DNA from: Metabacillus dongyingensis
GTDB taxonomy: Bacteria; Bacillota; Bacilli; Bacillales; Bacillaceae
Direction of reading: 5' to 3'
DNA: 64,000 bases
Assembly: GCF_019933155.2 (NCBI RefSeq)
Contig: NZ_CP082944.1
Coordinates: 3,846,001 to 3,910,000, forward strand
Shown here: positions 37,096 through 52,828 of the stretch, one piece after another
Layout of the letters: each line of letters opens with the position of its first letter
How positions within the stretch are numbered: the first letter of the stretch is position 1
Program-made: the position numbers and the translations under genes
Notes under the pieces: model-generated
Told to the model about the DNA's origin: nothing
What the model saw: the letters and a program-made list of their open reading frames with translations, nothing else
Database searches by the model: none

Positions 37096-37698
37096 ATGTC
37101 TCGTTATACAGGTCCAAGTTGGAAACTTTCCCGTCGTTTGGGAATTTCATTAAGCGGAACAGGTAAAGAATTAGAAAAGCGTCCATTCGCGCCAGGTCAG
37201 CACGGCCCGACTCAACGCAAAAAATTATCTGAGTACGGCTTACAATTACAGGAAAAACAAAAGCTTCGCCACATGTTCGGTGTGAACGAGCGTCAATTCC
37301 GCAACACATTTGACAAAGCTGCTAAAATGACTGGTAAACACGGTGAAAACTTCATGATTCTTCTTGAATCTCGTTTAGACAACGTTGTATATCGTCTTGG
37401 TTTAGCTCGCACTCGCCGTCAGGCACGTCAAATCGTTAACCATGGTCACATCATGGTTGATGGAAGCCGTGTAGACATTCCATCATTCCAAGTGAAACCA
37501 GGTCAAACAATCACTTTACGTGAAAAATCACGTAACCTTGACATCGTTAAAGAATCAATCGAAGTAAGTAACTTCGTTCCTGAATTCTTAACTTTCGATG
37601 CTGACAAATTAGAAGGTACTTTCACTCGCTTACCTGAGCGTTCTGAATTGCCGGCTGAAATTAACGAAGCTCTTATCGTTGAGTTCTACTCACGTTAA
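37096..37698 (+). CDS. rpsD: 30S ribosomal protein S4
   Basis: This primary 16S rRNA-binding protein nucleates assembly of the 30S body. It runs 200 residues, begins [15 protein letters not shown] and carries the S4 RNA-binding domain [18 protein letters not shown]. It has no N-terminal zinc-binding cysteines, so it is the zinc-independent form. AAGGAGGAG precedes the ATG. Strongly biased codons fit high expression. It marks the left border of the accessory block. Confidence 0.99.
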
Positions 37699-40409: not shown

Positions 40410-40523
40410 TTTTGAATTTAATAGTTAAAATGCACTGTCAATAACAAAAAATATGCGTACTATATAAAAGCTTTACTTATATTACTATTGGTAAAGCTAT
40501 TAAAAGTTGAAAGGAGGTTCCAA

Positions 40524-42158
<1,635 letters not shown>

Positions 42159-42890: not shown

Positions 42891-43697
42891 TTATAGAGAA
42901 GTCATAAACCGTTTTCTTTGCCTAAAACTAGCCCATTCTTTGAATCCCATTTCTTTTAGCTTATTCTGCACCTCTTCAAATTCATCTCCGACACGAGCAG
43001 GGGTGTGGGCATCTGAACCGAATGTGACCTTCACTCCATGATAAAGTGCTCTTTCCAGTATTTCGTCAGAAGGATACCATCCTCCGCAAAATTTATTTTT
43101 GCCGGATGTATTGATTTCGATCGCTACATCACACTCTGAAATGATGGATAACGTCCGGTCCACCGCCTCAGTTTGAATCGCTGAAAATTCGGGATAATAA
43201 CCTTTCATGGCGTCTATGTGTCCGAGAATTTGGAACACGCCACTGTGGGCAGATTTCTGAATCAAGGTGTAATAGTTGTCCTTCGTCTTCTGTTTCTCCT
43301 TTTCAGTGAGCCCTTCCCAGCGATCTTTTTTAAAAATATTCAGCCCTTCAACATGATGCACCGATCCAATCACATAATCGAATGGATACTTTGCGTAATA
43401 CTGCTTGTACATATGGATATGCTCCGGAAAAAAATCAGACTCTACACCAAGAAGAACTTCTATTTTGCCTTCATACTCTTTTTTCAGGCTCAGCACTTCC
43501 TTCACGTATTCCGGAAAATGACTTTTTGCCATCGCAATATTCGGGAACAAATGATCTTCTTCGCTGTATAAATATGGAGAATGGTCCGAAATCCCAATGA
43601 TATCCAGCTGCTTTTCCAATGCCGCTTCCACGTAATCGCGAATGGAGCGCTCTGCATGTCCGCATCTTTCATGATGAGTATGGTAATCAAATTTCAT
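42891..43697 (-). CDS. PHP-domain phosphatase, HisJ-like paralogue (268 aa)
   Basis: It has the PHP phosphoesterase motifs FDYHTHHERCGHAE (metal HxH), GISDHSPYL, VIGSVHHVEGLNIF and TFGSDAHTPARVG, so it is a metal-dependent phosphatase of the histidinol-phosphatase family. It is clearly divergent from the HisJ at 31530 and has an aromatic-rich C-terminus. ATG 43697 follows GAGGTG. It lies 80 bases past the serine hydrolase that ends the yhf-type cluster, across a terminator, so it may or may not belong to that pathway. Confidence 0.85.
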   Translation of the reverse strand: MKFDYHTHHERCGHAERSIRDYVEAALEKQLDIIGISDHSPYLYSEEDHLFPNIAMAKSHFPEYVKEVLSLKKEYEGKIEVLLGVESDFFPEHIHMYKQYYAKYPFDYVIGSVHHVEGLNIFKKDRWEGLTEKEKQKTKDNYYTLIQKSAHSGVFQILGHIDAMKGYYPEFSAIQTEAVDRTLSIISECDVAIEINTSGKNKFCGGWYPSDEILERALYHGVKVTFGSDAHTPARVGDEFEEVQNKLKEMGFKEWASFRQRKRFMTSL

Positions 43698-43750
43698 TTT
43701 CTGCACCTCGCTTTTCTTCTATTAGTAGTGTATCAATTTTCCATCATGCT

Positions 43751-43783
43751 AAAAAGACACCTTTTTGTGAGGTGTCTTATCGA
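43751..43783 (-). terminator. Terminator ending the yhf-type cluster
   Basis: AAGACACCT and AGGTGTCTT pair around CACAAA on the minus strand, then TTTTT. Confidence 0.85.
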
Positions 43784-45057
43784 TTAATCGAAGAATAAAC
43801 GATGTTGGCGATTTTCTTAGACAGCGGTCCTGTGCTCGCGTAGCTTCCGCTCGGGAGCTGTCCATTGTTTTGTTTGTTGGTGAGCAGGATGATCTGCAGG
43901 TCGTATTCCGGATCTATGATCACTTGAGTTCCTGTAAATCCTGTATGACCAAAGGCTTTTTCTGAATACTGGTCACCCATGTACCAGTTTTTCGCTTTCT
44001 CAAATCCATACCCTTGACCGAACGCTTGGTCAGAAGTAAAGGTGTTGACCGTTTCCTGATTGTAAATTTCCACTTTGCCATAGGAACCGCCATTCAGCAT
44101 GACCTGTCCTAATACGGCTAAATCCTTAGCCGTTGAAAACAAACCGGCATGACCGGCAACTCCGCCGTTTCCGTAAAAGCTGTTGCCATCATTCACTTCT
44201 CCAACGAGTGTATAGTTCCTCCAATAAGGAAACATGTCTGGATCTTCCTCTACATCGTATCCAAAGTCAGGATCATCAATCATTTTATACTCATACGGAT
44301 TGCCCCATGAAGTAGCGGCGATTTTCTTCTTCTGCTTCGGATCTGGCGTGAACATCGTATTCTTCATTTTGAGAGGCTTGTAGATTTCGTTTTCCAAGTA
44401 TCGATCAAGGGGCTGGTTAGTGATTTTTTCAATCACAAATCCAAGTGTCATAAAACTGAAATCACTGTATTTCCGCTGCGTGCCTGTTTCGTATTCAAGC
44501 GGCAGCTTATTAATATAATTCAGTACTTCTTTTGAATTGCGGGCGTAAAGATAGGTAGGATACCAAGGGGTTAATCCCGACGTATGCGTTAATAAATCTG
44601 CTATGGTCACATGCTCTTTTCCATTCTGGCCAAATTCAGGAATGTATTTAGCTGCAGGATCGGATAGGGATAATTTATTCTCATACTCGAGCTTCATAAT
44701 CCCCTGTGTTGTGCCCATCACTTTTGTAACAGAGGCTAAATCAAAAATATAATCCTTTTTCATTTTTCTAGGATGATCGAGAAGATTCCCCATATCGTAT
44801 TTTTGAGCATCACCGTATGCTTGTTCCTTGAGTATTTTTCCGTTTCTTGCAATTAGCACGACAGCTCCCGGTGTAATTCCATCTTCTATTGCACGGTAAA
44901 CAGCACCATCGATTTCTGATAGAATCTTTGGATCCATACCTTCTGTTTTAGAATTCCCATAGCTCAGTTTGCCAGGCTTTTCTTTGGCTGATACGCCGGC
45001 TGAAACTGGAGCTATAAATAGGAAGATGATTATCAGATATACACCTATCTTTTTCAT
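43777..45057 (-). CDS. Secreted beta-lactamase-family serine hydrolase
   Basis: An N-terminal signal peptide (MKKIGVYLIIIFLFIAPVSA) directs a class C beta-lactamase/DD-peptidase-fold domain outside the cell. The nucleophile motif SVTK is in DLASVTKVMGTTQG, the Tyr motif is YSDFSF and the third box is HTGFTGT. Length is 426. Relatives include penicillin-binding-like esterases and the YbbE-type muropeptide hydrolases of Bacillus. It starts 15 bases after yhfW with AAAGGAGGG, so it is the last gene of the nine-gene transcript. It could release the substrate that the cluster imports, which is inference from operon position. Confidence 0.88.
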   Translation of the reverse strand: MKKIGVYLIIIFLFIAPVSAGVSAKEKPGKLSYGNSKTEGMDPKILSEIDGAVYRAIEDGITPGAVVLIARNGKILKEQAYGDAQKYDMGNLLDHPRKMKKDYIFDLASVTKVMGTTQGIMKLEYENKLSLSDPAAKYIPEFGQNGKEHVTIADLLTHTSGLTPWYPTYLYARNSKEVLNYINKLPLEYETGTQRKYSDFSFMTLGFVIEKITNQPLDRYLENEIYKPLKMKNTMFTPDPKQKKKIAATSWGNPYEYKMIDDPDFGYDVEEDPDMFPYWRNYTLVGEVNDGNSFYGNGGVAGHAGLFSTAKDLAVLGQVMLNGGSYGKVEIYNQETVNTFTSDQAFGQGYGFEKAKNWYMGDQYSEKAFGHTGFTGTQVIIDPEYDLQIILLTNKQNNGQLPSGSYASTGPLSKKIANIVYSSINR

Positions 45058-45072
45058 TCTTTGCCCTCCTTT

Positions 45073-46269
45073 TTACTTCGCATTCAAGATTTCTCTCAAA
45101 AAACTTCTTCCATATTCAGGAGCGGGGAGATTGGCATATTCGGCCATGGTTGCCGCAATATCTGCCATCGTTTCCCGTTCTCCGATTGACACTGGCTTGA
45201 CTTTGTTTCCAATCACAAGAATTGGTGTTTGCTCTCTTGTATGGTTGGAGTGGCCGATTGTCGGATCGTTTCCGTGATCCGCTGTGACGATCAGCAAATC
45301 ATCATCTTCGAGTTTTTCCCGGAATTCTGCAAGAAAGGAATCGGATTGCTCAAGCACCGAGCGATACCACTCGCAATCCTGTTTGTGTCCCGCTAGATCG
45401 GTTTCCTGGACATTTATAAGAAAAATCGCATCCTTTTCTGCTTTCCGGTAGTGGTGCTCAAAAGACGAAAGCACTTTGACGGTTTCAACAGCGGGGTCAC
45501 TGAATCCCTTTGCCTGAACGACATCGGCGGTTTTCCCAATCCGGTAGACTGGCAGACCCTCCCTCTCTGCCAGATGGGCAAACTGTCTGCTGTAATCCAC
45601 TCCAAATCCAAGATGCAGCACATGGTAGCCTTCGCCGTATACATGGGCATTCGGACTGTCGACCCCCCACTGACCGTTCGGCTTATTCATTACGGCTGAT
45701 AATATTTTTACAATAGTCGTTTTTTCATTTCCGAATACGATAACCCTGCTCGTGTCCACGCAGTTTCTTACAATTCTTGCAATCTCACATGCTTCTTCAA
45801 ATGCAATTTGATTTAAATCGCATATTAAATTAATAATGTTTCCTGGTGAGGACTCCAGATTGTCGCCAATTACAATACAGCCATTCACCAGTAAAAGCGG
45901 AGCTTCAGGAACCGGATACTCTGCATGGCAGCCGTTTTTAATGAGCTTCGACTTGATGCGACTGCTGACTTCTTTCATCAGCCGTTTATTAGGAACCCCA
46001 GGTTTGCTGCCCATCAGCTCCTGGTGCCCCATAAACGTATCCGCTCCATCATGTGCAAGGTTGCTTTTTCCATACGCAGCCGCTGGTAATCCGGTTCCAT
46101 CAGCCAGCTGATTTAAACCGGAGTTATATAGAAAAGGAATGTTCAGTCCAGATGCTTCCTTCAAGTGCTGATATGTGTTCGCATTCATGTCCTCAGGTTT
46201 GGCAATTGCACAGTCCTGCATCGCTCCTATGCCGAAACCGTCCAGAATAAATAACGATACCTTTCCCAT
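45073..46269 (-). CDS. yhfW: YhfW-like metalloenzyme (phosphopentomutase-like)
   Basis: A member of the alkaline-phosphatase-like metalloenzyme superfamily, resembling phosphopentomutase (DeoB): FILDGFGIGAMQDC carries the metal Asp, AHDGADTFMGHQELMG and SPNAHVYGEGYH lie mid-chain, and VTADHGNDPTIGHSNHTRE holds C-terminal metal ligands. It is 398 residues from ATG 46269 (GAGAGGGG upstream). It probably moves or removes a phosphate on a small molecule; the E. coli counterpart is not assigned to my knowledge. It follows yhfX by four bases. Confidence 0.88.
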   Translation of the reverse strand: MGKVSLFILDGFGIGAMQDCAIAKPEDMNANTYQHLKEASGLNIPFLYNSGLNQLADGTGLPAAAYGKSNLAHDGADTFMGHQELMGSKPGVPNKRLMKEVSSRIKSKLIKNGCHAEYPVPEAPLLLVNGCIVIGDNLESSPGNIINLICDLNQIAFEEACEIARIVRNCVDTSRVIVFGNEKTTIVKILSAVMNKPNGQWGVDSPNAHVYGEGYHVLHLGFGVDYSRQFAHLAEREGLPVYRIGKTADVVQAKGFSDPAVETVKVLSSFEHHYRKAEKDAIFLINVQETDLAGHKQDCEWYRSVLEQSDSFLAEFREKLEDDDLLIVTADHGNDPTIGHSNHTREQTPILVIGNKVKPVSIGERETMADIAATMAEYANLPAPEYGRSFLREILNAK

Positions 46270-46273
46270 TTTC

Positions 46274-47425
46274 CTACACCCCTCTCCTCTGAAAATGAAC
46301 CACCTCAGGAGTTTTTGAATCTGCATTTTTAAGAAAAGCCACGTGGGATCTCGTAACAAAAATCTGCGTTCGGAAAGCGTAAAGAACCGTATCACCAACA
46401 TTCATCCTTGGATCCCGCTTCAAGCTTCCGTAGTAATCGATGTTTTCTGAAGAAGCCTGATGAACCTCTGTTTCCTGATCCAAGCGATCTCCAAAGAGTG
46501 CCTTTTTCATATTGGAGCGGGCATAAAACCCGCCTGCAATGGTGTATGCCTGATCTTCATCCATATGAGAAATTTCCGATAAATAAGCCATGCACGGTTT
46601 CTCTGTCAGATTTTCAGAATACGCATGCAAAGGAGTCGTTCCCGTCAAGGCGTGCCCCGGCTCACCGTGCGTAATCCCATATTCGCGGATAAGGGGAATC
46701 GTATGGCAGCTAGTGGAACTCGGCGCATTAAGATGAATTACTTCTATTCCCTGGTTAGCAAGAATGTCTCTGGATTTGAGCAGGGTTTGCAAATTACTGG
46801 TGAATTCAAAATCGGTTTTGGCCTCGTTCAGCTGCAAGACCGGAAAACACGTTGCTCCAATGACGTTTATTCCCGGCATCAGCTGCAGCTCACGTATACT
46901 CGACTCTAAGTTGTTAATTAAAAATCCGCCGTATTGACCCGGGTAAATGAAATCTTGCTTGCTGATCACCCTTAATATTACGTTCTGTTTCAGTCCCAGT
47001 CTGACGGCTGCATCTGACAGCTGTCTTGCTCTTTCTAGAGAGAAAAGCGTGACCACTTCAGGCCGGAGCTGTTTTAAGACCGTTTCCCATTGATTTTTTC
47101 CAGGCTGTACAAGATGACCAAGGTTCCCTATTTTGCAGCCTGCCTTTGAAAGATTGAATGCTTCATCAATATCAACTGCGACCGCTTTCTCGATGCCGTT
47201 TCGCTGGATGGTCTTCCCGACAAAACCGCTTCGTCCTATTTGTTTTGTCATATAAAACAGCTTAACGCTGTTTGCCTCGGCTGATTTTGCAAGAGCTCGT
47301 ACATTTGCCTCGAATGAGTCCAAGTCGATGACGTACGTATTCGGAGGGATAGAACCGCTTTGATGCAAGGCAGCCGCTGCCTTAATTAATGCAGGGTTTC
47401 GTTTCTGTATCATGTCTAAGAACAA
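46274..47425 (-). CDS. yhfX: YhfX-like PLP protein (alanine racemase fold)
   Basis: This fold-type III PLP enzyme has the lysine in FYMTKQIGRSG and the substrate-side stretches GHLVQPGKN, NAPSSTSCHTIP and YGITHGEPGHALTGTTP. E. coli YhfX shares these blocks. It may racemise or decompose an amino acid. The start is placed at TTG 47425: an AGGGGA lies ten bases upstream, and the product then begins FLDMIQKRNPALI, aligning with the E. coli start. A longer frame would overlap yhfS. The length is 383 residues. Confidence 0.85.
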   Translation of the reverse strand: MFLDMIQKRNPALIKAAAALHQSGSIPPNTYVIDLDSFEANVRALAKSAEANSVKLFYMTKQIGRSGFVGKTIQRNGIEKAVAVDIDEAFNLSKAGCKIGNLGHLVQPGKNQWETVLKQLRPEVVTLFSLERARQLSDAAVRLGLKQNVILRVISKQDFIYPGQYGGFLINNLESSIRELQLMPGINVIGATCFPVLQLNEAKTDFEFTSNLQTLLKSRDILANQGIEVIHLNAPSSTSCHTIPLIREYGITHGEPGHALTGTTPLHAYSENLTEKPCMAYLSEISHMDEDQAYTIAGGFYARSNMKKALFGDRLDQETEVHQASSENIDYYGSLKRDPRMNVGDTVLYAFRTQIFVTRSHVAFLKNADSKTPEVVHFQRRGV

Positions 47426-47432
47426 GGCTGTC

Positions 47433-48548
47433 TCATCCCCTAACGATCTCATTAACTGAAAGCTCAAGTATCCGTAAAATGGTTTCCGCGGATGCTTTCA
47501 TTGGATTGATTCTCAAACCGTATTCTCTTAAATGAGGCTGGCTTTCTAAAAAGCTCCCGGATACACGATAAATCATTGGCAGGATATCGTACTTTGATTC
47601 TGCTCCGACTGGATAGGTTGCCGCTCCGAATGAAGAGGCTTTTTCAATCACTTTTGGTGCGATCGGTGCTGAGAGTTCAACAATCACATTCTTTGATTGA
47701 GAGTTTGTGATATACGCTTCTTTAACAAATGAAAAACCGCCGTGATTAAGGATTTCGCATAGCTGCTCCACCTGTTCATTCTGAATCGCCAGCATAACTG
47801 GAGCCACTGTCATGGCCCGCAGCAATTCATGTGCTTCGTGCCCTTGAACCTGACCGCCTCCGGAATAATTGGTTTGATGTATTTTTTCAATGATTTCACC
47901 TGAACCGAGGATAAGGCCGATGCCTTCAGGTCCAAGTACTTTAAATCCGGAAAAAGTAGAAAGGTGCGCTCCATACTCAACGCCAATGCCCTTCATTTTC
48001 ATTGCACAGTAGTTATCATCAACCAAAATGATGACATCCGGCCTTGACTTTTTAACAAGAGCGATTATTTCTTCTAAATCATAAGTATCAGTCGGCTGCT
48101 GTCTTGCATGCTGAATGTAAAATACCTTTATATGCAGCTTTGTTTCTAATGCATTTTTCACCTTGTCCATGTGATTGAAATTTACAGCCTCTTGCTTGAA
48201 TCCCATCATCCGAAACGTTTCTTTTGTGGTCATGTACATCGGTGCTTCATGGACAAAAATAGAATCTCCCGGCTCCGCTATCATACTAAGTGCAATCCTG
48301 ATCGCACCGGAACCGCTTCCTCTTACAAGGGCGCAGTCCTCGGAATCGAACACGTTCGATAACACCCTCTCGGCGGCTGCTGTTGTTTTCGGGCGGTGGT
48401 ACTCCGGGTGAAGACCCACATCCCCTGTTTCAAAAAAGGCATTGTTTCGAAACACCTTCGTCATTTCATCAATCAGTTTGAATTGAAGTTCTTTTGCCTC
48501 TTCCATCGTCCGATTGATAAGTACGGAATTTGCATATTTCAACGCCAC
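47433..48548 (-). CDS. yhfS: YhfS-like PLP-dependent enzyme (aminotransferase fold)
   Basis: This fold-type I PLP enzyme of 371 residues has the PLP lysine probably in STFSGFKVLGPEGIG, the cofactor glycine-serine patch VRGSGSGAIRIAL and the Asp of LVDDNYCAMK. It belongs to the small YhfS group, whose reaction is unknown. The start is GTG with AGGAAGG upstream. It sits 15 bases after php in the cluster and just before yhfX, so two PLP enzymes of different folds act next to each other. Confidence 0.88.
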   Translation of the reverse strand: MALKYANSVLINRTMEEAKELQFKLIDEMTKVFRNNAFFETGDVGLHPEYHRPKTTAAAERVLSNVFDSEDCALVRGSGSGAIRIALSMIAEPGDSIFVHEAPMYMTTKETFRMMGFKQEAVNFNHMDKVKNALETKLHIKVFYIQHARQQPTDTYDLEEIIALVKKSRPDVIILVDDNYCAMKMKGIGVEYGAHLSTFSGFKVLGPEGIGLILGSGEIIEKIHQTNYSGGGQVQGHEAHELLRAMTVAPVMLAIQNEQVEQLCEILNHGGFSFVKEAYITNSQSKNVIVELSAPIAPKVIEKASSFGAATYPVGAESKYDILPMIYRVSGSFLESQPHLREYGLRINPMKASAETILRILELSVNEIVRG

Positions 48549-48563
48549 TTTCCATCATCCTTC

Positions 48564-49475
48564 CTAACCGATGCTGAATGCCTTTTGAGGATTGGCTACG
48601 AGCAGTTTATTTATAATAGAGCCGCTGACTCCATGGTTTTTCAGTGCCGGTATAAACGACCTGAGAACAATATCATATCCCTGCCCTCCGAGTGACTTCA
48701 GATGGGATTTCCTTGTCAGGTCACTAGAGAGCAAGAGCTGATCTTCAAAGCCTTTTTCAATAAATGTCAGCAAAGACCTGATCCGGTCTTCATCCGCCCG
48801 GTAATTTTCTTTGCCGATCGTATCCATCGCAGCAAATGCTCCGCTGTTCAATACTTCCAGCACAATTTCATCATTCGTATTCAGATCCTGATGGCCGATA
48901 ATCACCTTTTCAAGAAACAGACCTTCTTTTTGAAAAAGATTGATCTGCTCTAGAGCACAAGTGCCGAGCGTTGTATGGGTAGAGAGCGGAAGCTTCGTGG
49001 TTTTGGCCGCTTCGATGGCTCCATGGAATAGCTCGGTTTCGATCGGTTTAAATTCATTCAGACTGCTCCCGATCTCACCGATTACCCCCGGTTTAATTCC
49101 TGTCTCCCCTATTCCATCTTTGATTTCCGTGATCATCCACTCTGCAAATTGATCCCGATTCCATTTCTTTTTGTCATCCGGAATGAATGGATCCTTATAG
49201 CAGCCCGTACTCGCGATAATCTGCAGACCGGTTTTCCGGCTAATTTCCGCAAGCTGCTCTGCGTCTCTTCCCATCCCCTCATTTGTGACTTCTACAATTG
49301 CTTTACCTCCAAGAGCCGCAAAGCTCTCTAAGTCTTCCGTGACGAGTTCAATATCCTGCAAGCAAGTATCTTCGTTCTTTTTCACTCTGCTTAAGTCCAC
49401 ATATAGATGTTCATGACAGGCACACACACCTAACTCCTGCGGCTCCAGTTTACCCAGAACGGTTTGAATATACAT
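48564..49475 (-). CDS. php: Phosphotriesterase homology protein Php (YhfV)
   Basis: This amidohydrolase-fold metalloenzyme has the first metal pair in VCACHEHLYVDLS, and histidines in STHTTLGTCA and IIGHQDLN, with the last metal Asp in LLSSDLTRKS. The position of the carboxylated lysine of true phosphotriesterases is taken by Glu in GVIGEIGSS, as in E. coli PHP. Related proteins are often lactonases or phospho-ester hydrolases. It is 303 residues, with AAGGAGG before the ATG, and follows yhfT by 11 bases. Confidence 0.92.
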   Translation of the reverse strand: MYIQTVLGKLEPQELGVCACHEHLYVDLSRVKKNEDTCLQDIELVTEDLESFAALGGKAIVEVTNEGMGRDAEQLAEISRKTGLQIIASTGCYKDPFIPDDKKKWNRDQFAEWMITEIKDGIGETGIKPGVIGEIGSSLNEFKPIETELFHGAIEAAKTTKLPLSTHTTLGTCALEQINLFQKEGLFLEKVIIGHQDLNTNDEIVLEVLNSGAFAAMDTIGKENYRADEDRIRSLLTFIEKGFEDQLLLSSDLTRKSHLKSLGGQGYDIVLRSFIPALKNHGVSGSIINKLLVANPQKAFSIG

Positions 49476-49486
49476 TAAAAGCCTCC

Positions 49487-50785
49487 TTATCCTGCTGGCG
49501 GTACATAGAGCCCAAGAAGTACCAGGATGTTTCCGATAATTCCTACTGCAATTGCTCCAACAGGCCCAACTGCCATACGGACGATTGGACGTCCGGCTGC
49601 TTCATTCAGTAAATAGATCCCGGCAATAGCGAAGAAGCCCAGACTTGGAACAATGGCGTTCGCAGCATTTGCGCCTCCAATAAGAAGCGCTACTTCCAAT
49701 ACACGCGTCATCGCTGTCCTGATGTTTTCACCAGATGCCCGAATACCGGGATAACGGTCGAGGACTTTTGCTAATTGAGTCAAAATCATCACTTCCACTA
49801 AGATGATTACGGCTCCTAAAATAGCCGCGATGAATGGATTTGGGGAGAAAATTCCAGCCCCGAAAACGAAAGTAAACCCTACTGGACCATATACACCTGT
49901 AGCAATCGCTGTACTTGCGATCAGTGGAACGAATCCGATTGCTTTTGCAAGAGAGGCAATACCGCCTTCGGCAATCTTCCCTTCCGATAGCAGGTTAAGA
50001 GAGATCGGGTCGCCTGCAATTAAAAGCTGACTCGTTGCTGCAGCTACAAGTCCGCCGCTTATCATAAGTACCCATACATATTTTTTAATCTTCGAGACGC
50101 GCTCTGTGAACAATGCCGCTAAAGCGGACAGGTTCTTCTCATCAGACTTTTCCCGTACAGCAAATGCAATTAAGAAAATCATTCCAATAATAAGAGCAAT
50201 CCCTTCCGGACTTAAAACAACCTGCGTCCCATTGATGCTGATCAGCTTATCCGTGTTTGCAAAAACGATGAGCTGTCTTGCAATAGCCGCCACAATAAAC
50301 GTCAAAATCCCTTTTTTAATTCCAAATTGAAGAGCAACAGCAATGGCCGGGAACACCATGAAGGAAACGACAACCGGTTCGCCGATTTTATTAAATCCTT
50401 CAGCAAAATTCAGCGGCAGCATCGCAAATGCATCAACGACAACTTGCAGACCATAGTAAATGCCAGCGCCATATAAAGCTCCTGCTGCCCCTGCGAGCAC
50501 GGAATTAATTTTTCCTCTGTTGAATGCAAGACCAATGATATCTGTTCCAAGCAAAATACTATGAATAAGAATAATGCTTCCCGCAATTGAAATCGGAATC
50601 CCAAATCCGATGACAAGACCGAAACTCATGGCAAAGGCGGTTACACCAAGCTCTTTTCGGCTCATCCGCCCTTCAAGATTTTCCGGAACAATCGGTCTGA
50701 GCCCATCGTTAAAGACCGCAATCCCCAAATTTGCCATGACGGCTGCAAGCGCCCCAATACAAGCCATTAAAATTACTTCTACCAT
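49487..50785 (-). CDS. yhfT: YhfT-like membrane transporter
   Basis: This very hydrophobic protein of 432 residues has about 11-12 helices and many glycine/alanine-rich segments (for example AGAAGALYGAGIYYGLQ and IAVGIIGNILVLLGLY). It matches the YhfT family found only in yhf-type clusters, and is presumed to import the substrate. It is accompanied by yhfU, 26 bases upstream, which may be a soluble partner. GGGGA precedes the ATG. No ATP-binding subunit is present, so transport would be ion-coupled. Confidence 0.85.
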   Translation of the reverse strand: MVEVILMACIGALAAVMANLGIAVFNDGLRPIVPENLEGRMSRKELGVTAFAMSFGLVIGFGIPISIAGSIILIHSILLGTDIIGLAFNRGKINSVLAGAAGALYGAGIYYGLQVVVDAFAMLPLNFAEGFNKIGEPVVVSFMVFPAIAVALQFGIKKGILTFIVAAIARQLIVFANTDKLISINGTQVVLSPEGIALIIGMIFLIAFAVREKSDEKNLSALAALFTERVSKIKKYVWVLMISGGLVAAATSQLLIAGDPISLNLLSEGKIAEGGIASLAKAIGFVPLIASTAIATGVYGPVGFTFVFGAGIFSPNPFIAAILGAVIILVEVMILTQLAKVLDRYPGIRASGENIRTAMTRVLEVALLIGGANAANAIVPSLGFFAIAGIYLLNEAAGRPIVRMAVGPVGAIAVGIIGNILVLLGLYVPPAG

Positions 50786-50811
50786 CTTTCATCCCCCATC
50801 CCCATATCAAT

Positions 50812-51174
50812 CTATTTGTTTTTTAATAAAGCCTCCATCAAATACTCAATAGCTTTCTCCTTGTGATCCCCCGTAAATCCAAAAGCTGTTGCCCCCTGGT
50901 CGACTGCAGACTGCACGTTTTCTTTTATCGGAGTCTTGCCGGGCATAGAGATGGTTGCGCACTTTGGTTTTCCAAGCAGCGCTATTGCCATAGCTAAAGC
51001 TCCCCCTCCGCCGGTATGGCAGGCGCCGACGTAATAATCCGCTCCCCCTGATTTCAGCAGCATCGCTGCTTCTAAATCAGCTTTCACGGTCACTTCTACC
51101 TGCTCTCCTCCGTATTTCTTAACTAAACTCTCAATCTCTTTTTTCTCCACCTGACCGCCTACTACAATTTTCAT
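50812..51174 (-). CDS. yhfU: YhfU-like protein (DUF2620)
   Basis: A small cytosolic protein of 120 residues opening KIVVGGQVEKKEIESLVKKY, with the glycine patch GACHTGGGGALAMAIALLG and SMPGKTPIKENV. This is the DUF2620/YhfU family; the glycine-rich loop suggests nucleotide or phosphate binding. It always accompanies yhfT and may gate or energise the transporter. GGGAGGA precedes the ATG. It follows yhfY by 15 bases. Confidence 0.85.
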   Translation of the reverse strand: MKIVVGGQVEKKEIESLVKKYGGEQVEVTVKADLEAAMLLKSGGADYYVGACHTGGGGALAMAIALLGKPKCATISMPGKTPIKENVQSAVDQGATAFGFTGDHKEKAIEYLMEALLKNK

Positions 51175-51189
51175 TTTTTATTCCTCCCT

Positions 51190-51534
51190 TTATGCTGTTA
51201 ATGCTGCTACAAAGTGCATATATAGAAATTCTTTTTCTTCTCTGGGTATGGTGATGCGGCATTCAATTTCAATCCATTTAACCCGTCTTTGCGCTTCTTC
51301 AAGATTTGGAGAATTATATATTTCCTTCATAATCGATGGCGGAGGAGCATTCAGCGGTTCGTTTCTCTCCATCCTTGTCACTGCCATGGCCAAATGAGTA
51401 ATTAACATTTGATAGTTAGCCGCTTCCGTTTGAGACACATATGCATCAATCGTTTTATGGCAGATGATTTGAGCATTTTCTGTAATGGCATCCGTTGATT
51501 TAAGTATTTCGAGTCTTTCAAACAGTTCTTTCAT
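51190..51534 (-). CDS. yhfY: YhfY-like PRD-domain protein
   Basis: A 114-residue helical protein with the PRD (phosphotransferase regulation domain) layout: a histidine in ICHKTIDAY, LITHLAMAVTR with its conserved His, and the closing HFVAALTA. In other proteins PRD histidines are phosphorylated by the PTS; here the domain stands alone, as in E. coli YhfY. GGGAGGG precedes the ATG. An operator-like palindrome lies 17 bases before the start (51551-51567), so this gene opens the main transcript. Confidence 0.8.
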   Translation of the reverse strand: MKELFERLEILKSTDAITENAQIICHKTIDAYVSQTEAANYQMLITHLAMAVTRMERNEPLNAPPPSIMKEIYNSPNLEEAQRRVKWIEIECRITIPREEKEFLYMHFVAALTA

Positions 51535-51550
51535 GAGTGCGCCCTCCCAA

Positions 51551-51567
51551 TGTACAATAAATTGTAT
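51551..51567 (-). promoter_or_regulatory. Predicted YhfZ operator upstream of yhfY
   Basis: TGTACAATAAATTGTAT contains the perfect inverted repeat TACAAT-AA-ATTGTA (51553-51566). It is 15/17 identical to the site before yhfZ and occurs just before the start of the metabolic genes. Confidence 0.65.
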
Positions 51568-51588
51568 TTTGAATATAAAAAGGGATTC

Positions 51589-52515
51589 TTAGTATTTCGG
51601 AATGTAATCCCCTTTTTCCACCAGTGTTTGTATTCTTTTAATCTCATGTAAATCCAAATGCTGCAGAATATACTCCGCCTTTTTGTTTTCTTTTCTAATG
51701 ACGCAGACAGCTTCACCTATATTCAACTCTTCTTTTTTTGCTATTTCAGAGGAAAGCGGTATCGTATTGTATAACCCGCTGTCAATTTCATCAATGTTCC
51801 AAATGGTCGCATCAATCGTTTTCGCTCTTAAATGCTGCAGCAGATGCATGTAATTGAGCTCAACAAACTCTACCTTTTTTTCATTTGTTTCCGCTTTAAC
51901 AAGAATCTTTTGATCGGTTGAATTATGGTCAATTCCTACCTTCATGCCATTTTTGATTTCAAGATTTCCTTTTTCTGAAAAGAAGACCGCATGCTTTGAA
52001 ACATACGTATGGCTCCCGAAAGCAAGAGCAATAGAAAGATCCGGGTCCTGTTTCAATGCTTCTGCAGCTGAGAATTTGGAAACAAGGGCAAAGTCGTATC
52101 TCCCTTTGCTCACTTCATCAATTCTCAGTTTAGCCCCTCTCATAAAAGCAATGCTTAAATTCAATTGGTTTTCCTCAAATTGAGACGTAAGGCCGGATGC
52201 CAGCCCTTCATATTTTTTGGAATACGGCAAAGGCATCACTCCGGTCATTCTTTCAGCACCGCAATACTTGAACAAAGAGGGAATATTTTTCTTCCTTAAA
52301 AAGGTGCCCATATGTCCTTTAGGTTCAAGACTAATGCTTCCGGTTTGCTCTAAATATTTCAGAGCTGTCTGTACTGTTCCCCTGCCAACATTAAATCTTT
52401 CTGAAAAATCTCCTACTTTTGGTATCCGCTCATTTAGTTCAATAAATAATAGATCCTCTGCGATCTTCTGCAAAATTAACCCCTTTTTAGAAAGGAGCGA
52501 CTCAAAAATCTCCAT
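51589..52515 (-). CDS. yhfZ: YhfZ-like GntR-type transcriptional regulator with ligand-binding domain
   Basis: The N-terminal winged helix reads VGDFSERFNVGRGTVQTALK and then YLEQTGSISLEPKG, as in GntR-type regulators. The C-terminal two thirds resemble a periplasmic-binding fold (KGRYDFALVSKFSAAEAL, MKVGIDHNSTDQK), presumably sensing the pathway substrate. About 308 residues from ATG 52515; a TTG at 52533 lies within the operator and is less likely. The ribosome site is weak. Palindromes before yhfZ and before yhfY indicate that it regulates itself and the cluster. Confidence 0.85.
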   Translation of the reverse strand: MEIFESLLSKKGLILQKIAEDLLFIELNERIPKVGDFSERFNVGRGTVQTALKYLEQTGSISLEPKGHMGTFLRKKNIPSLFKYCGAERMTGVMPLPYSKKYEGLASGLTSQFEENQLNLSIAFMRGAKLRIDEVSKGRYDFALVSKFSAAEALKQDPDLSIALAFGSHTYVSKHAVFFSEKGNLEIKNGMKVGIDHNSTDQKILVKAETNEKKVEFVELNYMHLLQHLRAKTIDATIWNIDEIDSGLYNTIPLSSEIAKKEELNIGEAVCVIRKENKKAEYILQHLDLHEIKRIQTLVEKGDYIPKY

Positions 52516-52526
52516 AGCACCACTCT

Positions 52527-52543
52527 TGTACAATTATTTGTAT
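52527..52543 (-). promoter_or_regulatory. Predicted YhfZ operator upstream of yhfZ
   Basis: TGTACAATTATTTGTAT, an inverted repeat TACAAT-TA-TTTGTA with one mismatch, lies 12 bases upstream of the ATG at 52515. It matches the second site at 51551-51567. Confidence 0.65.
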
Positions 52544-52828
52544 ATTCATTCATTGATGCAAATTTACCATATATTTAAGCTGTTTACAAGATTGATTTTT
52601 CTGAATAATTTGTTAAAATGATTACCTGCTCCTTTCTATCTTTTTTTACCGAAGATTAAACATAAGGTGTAATGTGTATCGTATAAATCAAGTTAATCTA
52701 TAAAAAATCCTTAATAATAAAAAAACAGCACACCAATTAGACTGCTAATTGATGTGCTATTTCTTAGGTTTATAGAAGTGTGGTATGCACCTTTCAAGCT
52801 AGCCCGTTCCAGCAAGTGAGGCTTTTCA
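52544..52828. other. Intergenic between yhfZ and tyrS
   Basis: Apart from a hairpin at 52720-52758 nothing gene-like is seen. The stretch is AT-rich and would hold the yhfZ promoter. Confidence 0.5.
52720..52758 (-). terminator. Terminator of tyrS
   Basis: AGCACATCAATTAG and CTAATTGGTGTGCT pair around CAGT on the minus strand, then seven T residues. Confidence 0.85.

Follow-up and report, generated by a model that had tools for sequence, protein, structure and literature searches.

The yhf operon of Metabacillus dongyingensis as a candidate amino-sugar pathway linked to the phosphotransferase system

The yhf module and its relatives

The eight yhf genes of Escherichia coli K-12 lie on one strand in the order yhfZ-Y-X-W-php-U-T-S and adjoin trpS, a class-I aminoacyl-tRNA synthetase gene. 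The Protein Data Bank (PDB) holds entries for four of the families (4j8l for YhfS, 4kbx for YhfX, 1bf6 and 4lef for the phosphotriesterase homology protein, and 2ozz for YhfZ). In titles and abstract openings of the literature, no function is described for the yhf module or for the sister DUF4310/4311/4312 families, and no connection of the module to the phosphotransferase system (PTS) is described at that level either. One article (PMC4448311) names yhf genes in a table of riboswitch candidates. Here we describe the same eight families in Metabacillus dongyingensis, within a window of 64,000 nucleotides (C1:3846001-3910000 of a 5.4-Mb genome), and compare them with yhf loci of other bacteria. 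The explanation that we prefer, quite possible but short of probable, is a YhfZ-regulated catabolic operon in which a PTS-linked YhfY-YhfU-YhfT permease would be coupled to the breakdown of a phosphorylated amino-sugar derivative to glucosamine 6-phosphate (GlcN-6-P). Gene content, conservation and genetic linkage form its observed basis, together with the predicted fold of YhfU.

A sister cassette, EF_0829-EF_0833/DgaE-DgaF, shares with the yhf module a PRD protein, a YhfU homolog (EF_0830, PF14272), membrane proteins, an amidohydrolase, an enzyme dependent on pyridoxal phosphate (PLP) of the D-glucosaminate-6-phosphate ammonia-lyase group, a HAD phosphatase and, in one of five loci (L176), HPr and Enzyme I (EI), which lie beyond the HAD gene. 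It differs in having two separate membrane proteins (DUF4310 and DUF4311), neither of which matches YhfT significantly by profile, and in an aldolase route that takes the place of the GlcN-6-P deaminase NagB. The substrate of DgaE is a 6-phosphorylated amino-sugar acid that is delivered in Salmonella by a conventional PTS. EF_0830 has matches in 6 of 299 genomes searched, 5 of them over the cut-off. Four of these five loci have, in order, a PRD regulator, an amidohydrolase, a PRD protein, EF_0830, EF_0831, EF_0832, EF_0833, a DgaE-family ammonia lyase, a DgaF-family aldolase and HAD; in the stretch read of the fifth, amidohydrolase, DgaE, DgaF and HAD are missing. These names were verified by NCBIfam in L175 only, where EF_0830, EF_0832, EF_0833, TIGR01437 (DgaE family), TIGR03581 and Cof exceed their cut-offs; the equivalogs for DgaE and DgaF are matched too, though below their cut-offs, as are the models for EF_0829, EF_0831 and EF_0837. 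The two systems are joined by weak NCBIfam links (YhfU to EF_0830, E 5e-4; YhfY to EF_0829, E 7e-4) and by a profile alignment of YhfU with EF_0830 (108 columns, 27% identity, E 1.8e-4, probability 48%). Two distinct sets of membrane proteins thus occur with related soluble proteins, each with HPr and EI alongside at least once, and both pathways look like amino-sugar phosphate breakdown.

A first-pass annotation of the window, made from the sequence alone, assigned eight of its genes to the E. coli families, and most of the proteins do match them. All eight, as well as an exported serine hydrolase encoded after them, exceed Pfam cut-offs, and seven of the eight align pairwise with their E. 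coli K-12 counterparts at 32-43% identity (BLASTP E 1e-25 to 4e-96; the E. coli YhfS compared was partial, 340 residues). YhfY did not reach E 1e-3 against E. coli YhfY in pairwise BLASTP and is identified because of its PRD domain, its operon position and its conserved histidine. As in E. coli K-12, the module of the window lies on one strand (here the minus strand) and adjoins a class-I aminoacyl-tRNA synthetase gene (here tyrS). It differs in gene order and in the extra hydrolase; as the first-pass annotation had it, the order is yhfZ-Y-U-T-php-S-X-W-hydrolase. The genes are as follows (positions are those of the window).

51589..52533, minus strand: yhfZ, GntR-type regulator with a YhfZ_C ligand-binding domain (PF14503, 262 bits), a relative of PDB 2ozz
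51190..51534, minus strand: yhfY, stand-alone PRD domain (PF00874, 45.8 bits, cut-off 23)
50812..51174, minus strand: yhfU, DUF2620 protein (164 bits) with a predicted RpiB-like fold and Cys52
49487..50785, minus strand: yhfT, polytopic membrane protein and candidate permease (PF10797, 601 bits)
48564..49475, minus strand: php, phosphotriesterase-family hydrolase (PTE, PF02126, 251 bits)
47433..48548, minus strand: yhfS, fold-type-I PLP enzyme (YhfS-like_C, PF22475, 147 bits; PDB 4j8l)
46274..47425, minus strand: yhfX, alanine-racemase-like fold-type-III PLP enzyme (YhfX-like_C, PF21279, 109 bits; PF01168, 65 bits; PDB 4kbx)
45073..46269, minus strand: yhfW, phosphopentomutase-like phosphomutase (Metalloenzyme, 115 bits; NF009049 (PRK12383), 490 bits, cut-off 254)
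43777..45057, minus strand: exported serine hydrolase with a class-C beta-lactamase fold, PBP4B/AmiE-like (PF00144, 229 bits)

YhfZ also matches the NCBIfam model YhfZ_full (NF041241) with 371 bits against a cut-off of 260.

Genetic linkage of the module to phosphotransferase-system genes and to nagB

The comparison covers 67 yhfT loci (10 named, E. coli K-12, two plasmids, further genomes and the window), which are reduced to 63 distinct loci by dropping L057, L058, L060 and L070 (identical YhfT core); near-duplicates were kept, and a gene was taken as contiguous with the module if within 120 nt. Besides the named ones, 57 genomes have yhfT or yhfU over the cut-off, and 54 of them were read (G276, G315 and G327 were left out). 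Hidden Markov models (HMMs) find yhfT, yhfU and yhfX in all 63 loci, yhfZ, yhfY and yhfS in 62 each, php in 61 and yhfW in 57. The yhfY of L130 lies outside the HMM count and was recovered by tblastn, and tblastn gave no match for php in L172 and L173, for yhfS in the Vibrio locus or for yhfZ in L129. The genes yhfY-U-T are consecutive in 59 loci and yhfU-T in 62, and the remaining gene order is shuffled.

YhfY is a single PRD domain in which His47 is conserved in 62/62 loci and a second histidine in 49/62. PRD domains, which are usually regulatory, receive phosphate from HPr or from EIIB proteins. In YhfU, Cys52 is invariant (63/63 loci). The first-pass annotation had paired YhfU with YhfT in import. 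On prediction YhfU shares the fold of the sugar-phosphate isomerase RpiB and is not a generic transporter subunit; Cys52-x-Thr/Ser54-Gly lines up with the catalytic cysteine motif of that enzyme. Despite this likeness YhfU differs from RpiB and LacAB in having no PF02502 match (DUF2620 is its sole Pfam match at E 0.01) and no Asp-His motif, since in the profile alignment a gap and GGQV stand where RpiB has that pair near its N-terminus; its gene further differs in adjoining a membrane-protein gene in 62 of the 63 loci. YhfT (AF2 model, pLDDT 88) gives no convincing PDB fold match and no EIIC in its match lists, a result that leaves room for an EIIC. Motifs seen by eye hinted that YhfT joins an EF_0833-like half to an EF_0832-like one, but the profile comparison gave E 0.4-0.6, and an internal repeat reached only E 0.0025 (11-12% probability); neither is proposed here. 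In L082 and L083 (genomes G301 and G039) the YhfT match is split in a 498-residue frame, with some 50 residues inserted around position 172.

Going by conservation only, YhfY and YhfU offer the histidine and the cysteine of phosphorylatable type that an Enzyme II requires in its soluble partners. The trio resembles a PTS Enzyme II in these invariant residues, in a proposed A-B-C division and in the HPr and EI linkage found in some genomes. It differs in that the predicted RpiB-like fold is not a recognized EIIB fold, the PRD is not a recognized EIIA and YhfT is without a convincing structural match. In the strong form of our explanation YhfY, YhfU and YhfT would serve, following the gene order of the operon, as EIIA, EIIB and EIIC, and phosphate would pass from phosphoenolpyruvate to EI, HPr, His47 of YhfY and Cys52 of YhfU and then to the substrate carried by YhfT. 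Such a phosphotransfer, which we infer, would phosphorylate the substrate on uptake and would thereby explain a module without a sugar kinase of its own. That YhfY-U-T and EF_0829-EF_0830-EF_0832/0833 make up an unrecognized PTS permease family, with a PRD EIIA, an RpiB-fold phospho-cysteine EIIB and an EIIC of unmatched fold, is conceivable but doubtful.

Much of this would also suit a module that is regulated by the PTS and does not transport through it. HPr would then phosphorylate YhfY and tune expression or activity, YhfT would be an ion-driven or facilitated carrier and YhfU a soluble isomerase or binding protein. The usual role of PRD domains, the RpiB-like fold of YhfU with its aligned cysteine motif and the missing EIIC match of YhfT are all in keeping with this; it does not explain the source of the 6-phosphate, given one kinase-like gene among 20 further contiguous genes, and the near-constant adjacency of YhfU and YhfT (62/63) suits a complex better than a loose enzyme, while the Asp-His pair of RpiB has no counterpart in YhfU. 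Purely regulatory involvement of the PTS is a serious alternative, albeit an unlikely one.

PTS genes have joined the module itself in some genomes. An HPr gene (over the TIGR01003 cut-off) lies 3' of yhfW in 3/63 loci, L087, L130 and L131, in the order yhfW-HPr-EI-nagB-HAD in L130 and yhfW-HPr-nagB-HAD in L131. When all open reading frames of at least 50 residues were searched in 72 loci (1.47 Mb, the four duplicates included), the only HPr genes were the four of L087, L130, L131 and L176 and the only EI genes the two of L130 and L176, each beside a yhf module or a sister cassette. The L130 genome has a second EI over the cut-off elsewhere. At 8631-8882 of L130 the HPr frame beside EI seems disturbed in its C-terminal third relative to L131, which may reflect a sequencing error or decay. 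EI is over the cut-off in 54/54 yhf-bearing genomes tested (57 were found, with G276, G315 and G327 outside the test), in 22 of 25 controls and also in the sister-cassette genome G554. The three controls without EI are yhf-negative members of one family (f144), and its two sampled yhf-positive members have EI.

NagB is encoded in or beside the module in 10/63 loci (L010, L011, L073, L074, L081, L082, L083, L088, L130 and L131), inside the contiguous block in five of them. All ten exceed the TIGR00502 cut-off, L010 being scored via a counterpart genome with identical YhfT; the NagB of L171 was excluded (141 against a cut-off of 236.9). Each of the seven linked-NagB genomes checked has at least one more NagB elsewhere. 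In a tree of 21 NagB sequences, 5 label changes are required to account for the linked copies (4-6 over 200 bootstrap trees), at least 2 of which are forced by well-supported branches; 36/500 shuffles needed as few, and the linked copies form a single group in 0% of the 200 bootstrap trees. A further nagB on the second contig of the host (G000:C2:120360-121088) has an in-frame TAG. With gene numbers assumed, two independent HPr placements have a chance probability of p 0.004 and five independent NagB placements of p 0.0009.

Several points limit this evidence. If only two of the NagB placements are independent, the same estimate gives p 0.17. The absence of any yhf genome without EI is a test passed, but a weak one because EI is common. 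All 20 other genes that are contiguous with the module were inspected, and they include five without a family match, three for glycoside degradation and one HPr (these last four in L087) and a sole kinase-like gene. This last gene, of the APH type and upstream of yhfZ in its locus, L093, weakens the argument that the module has no kinase. The linkage evidence overall is good, not overwhelming. The first-pass annotation had proposed a stand-alone pathway that imports and processes a small molecule; import and processing are supported, while the pathway is probably not stand-alone, as HPr, EI and NagB are added elsewhere.

Pathway enzymes and the candidate substrate

In the explanation we prefer, YhfZ would regulate an operon that imports a small amino-sugar derivative for glycolysis, and the serine hydrolase, once exported, would act outside the cell to free the unit to be transported. 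Processing of the phosphorylated compound would fall to Php, YhfW and both PLP enzymes, joined in other genomes by an amidase-signature protein, and the product would reach the GlcN-6-P deaminase step, served by a dedicated NagB in some genomes and by a housekeeping one elsewhere. We infer both this order of steps and the substrate, which is probably an amino sugar joined to, or derived with, an amino acid. Phosphorylated amino sugars are the most economical guess from Php, YhfW, NagB and HAD together.

Php keeps its metal ligands, and its K222 and R255 align with K242 and R275 of the phospho-furanose lactonase 3pnz (Lmo2620). The phosphate site of Lmo2620, which we take to be K242, K244, R275 and Y278, is matched in the window protein by K and R at two positions, N at one and H at one. 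K222 is found in 61/61 loci, and position 255 is R in 55 and K in 6. Php scores below the curated phospho-furanose lactonase cut-off (NF045706, 98.6 bits against 630); judged by its residues, it may act like such a lactonase. YhfW keeps the phosphopentomutase metal ligands and the Thr/Ser nucleophile (39/17, one gap) in an alignment to 3m8w whose middle part is poor.

The catalytic residues of this phosphomutase-type enzyme and the phosphate-site residues of Php would equally be expected if YhfT imported a substrate that is already phosphorylated, either a phosphate ester or a phosphonate. YhfW would then move or remove the phosphate, Php would open a phospho-lactone and the PTS genes would be regulatory passengers. 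The weak similarity of YhfZ to PhnF (NCBIfam, E 0.008) and the Cof-type HAD phosphatases near the module in 7/63 loci point the same way; HPr and EI beside both the yhf module and the sister cassette are left unexplained, and we regard this alternative as improbable.

Pentose or nucleoside salvage, in which YhfW would be a true phosphopentomutase and the pathway would handle ribose phosphates, finds some encouragement in the NCBIfam name of the YhfW model (phosphopentomutase) and in a pyrimidine-type nucleoside hydrolase 3' of the serine hydrolase in 6/63 blocks (L062-L067). All six cases come from one genus (g23), and NagB, the amidase and the two PLP enzymes do not fit. Moreover, yhfW is missing from five otherwise complete modules (L003, L055, L062, L063 and L072) while the rest of the module stays. 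We regard salvage as very improbable. Four of the five give no tblastn match to yhfW, and in L062 the serine-hydrolase frame opens with a 53-residue remnant of the yhfW start. The contig of L172 stops within yhfX, and no yhfW was seen there. L092 carries yhfW twice, side by side, in one module.

An amidase-signature gene is present in 19/63 loci, within the contiguous block in 18, and the Lys-Ser-Ser triad of the amidase-signature family is kept in 19/19. Pfam was checked for L088 only (PF01425, 41 bits, cut-off 27); the gene of L095 is annotated as 'amidase family protein' in its record, and the proteins of L095 and L131 have no NCBIfam match at 1e-8. The serine hydrolase of the window has an apparent N-terminal signal peptide and an SxxK motif, both seen by eye, and falls below the curated PBP4B cut-off (PRK03642, 305 bits against 385). 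It is contiguous with the module in 13/63 loci, a count that leaves aside those of L072 (the next gene, not within 120 nt), L078 and L088 (upstream). Muropeptide recycling was rejected, as the PBP4B/AmiE-like hydrolase is below that cut-off and no etherase was recognized in the module. For teichoic-acid or bacillithiol breakdown, also rejected, no supporting gene was seen.

Boundaries, distribution and significance of the operon

The intergenic gaps of the operon are Z-Y 54, Y-U 15, U-T 26, T-php 11, php-S 15, S-X 7, X-W 4 and W-hydrolase 15 nt, so that the 4-26 nt spacing claimed earlier from yhfY onward is borne out when yhfX is read from TTG 47425; this start and that of yhfW were assigned in the present analysis. 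The start of yhfZ is TTG 52533 or ATG 52515. The spacing and the single terminator agree with one transcript for the operon, and by spacing the serine hydrolase would share that of yhfW. The boundaries are marked by two features.

43754..43778, minus strand: intrinsic terminator of the operon, with a 9-bp stem and a U tract
52534..52720, minus strand: leader or promoter region between the tyrS terminator and yhfZ

The terminator hairpin (43778-43754), the single one at the end that the first-pass annotation had noted, is real (-11.6 kcal/mol, z -2.5; 5/200 shuffles equally good), and a consensus terminator scan did not pick it up. On the upstream side lies tyrS, which is led by a T-box and followed by a terminator of its own at 52764-52721, and therefore yhfZ begins a new unit. 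A palindrome, TTGTACAA, lies at 52526-52533, just before the yhfZ ATG, and is a possible operator. The cluster had been placed between rpsD and tyrS. The tyrS gene indeed adjoins it upstream, but rpsD (37096-37698, plus strand) is not the next gene and lies 6 kb past the hydrolase; the genes in between include a HisJ-like one and a long one of collagen-like repeats. The HisJ-like PHP phosphoesterase gene (42891-43706) follows right past the operon terminator; relatives occur within the fetched stretch in 14/63 loci (the window counted), directly 3' of the hydrolase in L055. The collagen-like protein (40488-42158), downstream on the opposite strand, has 556 residues, mostly GAT repeats.

At E <= 0.001, YhfT is found in 35/397 genomes of the order of the host (33 over the cut-off), in 13/398 genomes of the phylum (12 over the cut-off) and in 5/26, 3/13, 4/59 and 2/29 genomes of four class samples that were picked for holding a known positive genome. 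DUF2620 (YhfU) is matched in 9/249 genomes of another class sample. The complete cluster in a Bacillus that headed the first-pass annotation is therefore no surprise in itself, as all seven genome samples searched gave a YhfT or YhfU match. Among the genomes listed in the order sample, the 4 others of the host genus and the 11 others of the host family have no YhfT, and the presence of the module is therefore patchy. Among the nearest named proteins, YhfU is 98% identical to that of Bacillus sp. V2I10 and YhfT 94% to that of Metabacillus indicus. The DNA of yhfU-yhfT is present in 5028/5426 complete E. coli genomes. By tblastn, yhfT is found in 5 of 72,556 plasmid records; three of these are E. 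coli records of chromosome size, and the other two are a plasmid of Vibrio and one of Cetobacterium, the last of which holds the entire module. The copy in the window is not unique but one ordinary instance of a module that is widespread yet patchy.

The comparative evidence makes the function of the module testable, through its PTS dependence, two named phospho-residues and amino-sugar conjugates as a substrate class. If the explanation preferred here is true, PTS uptake of an amino-sugar/amino-acid conjugate and its breakdown via GlcN-6-P would give eight E. coli genes a role, and if the strong form is true, a new architecture would be added to the PTS.

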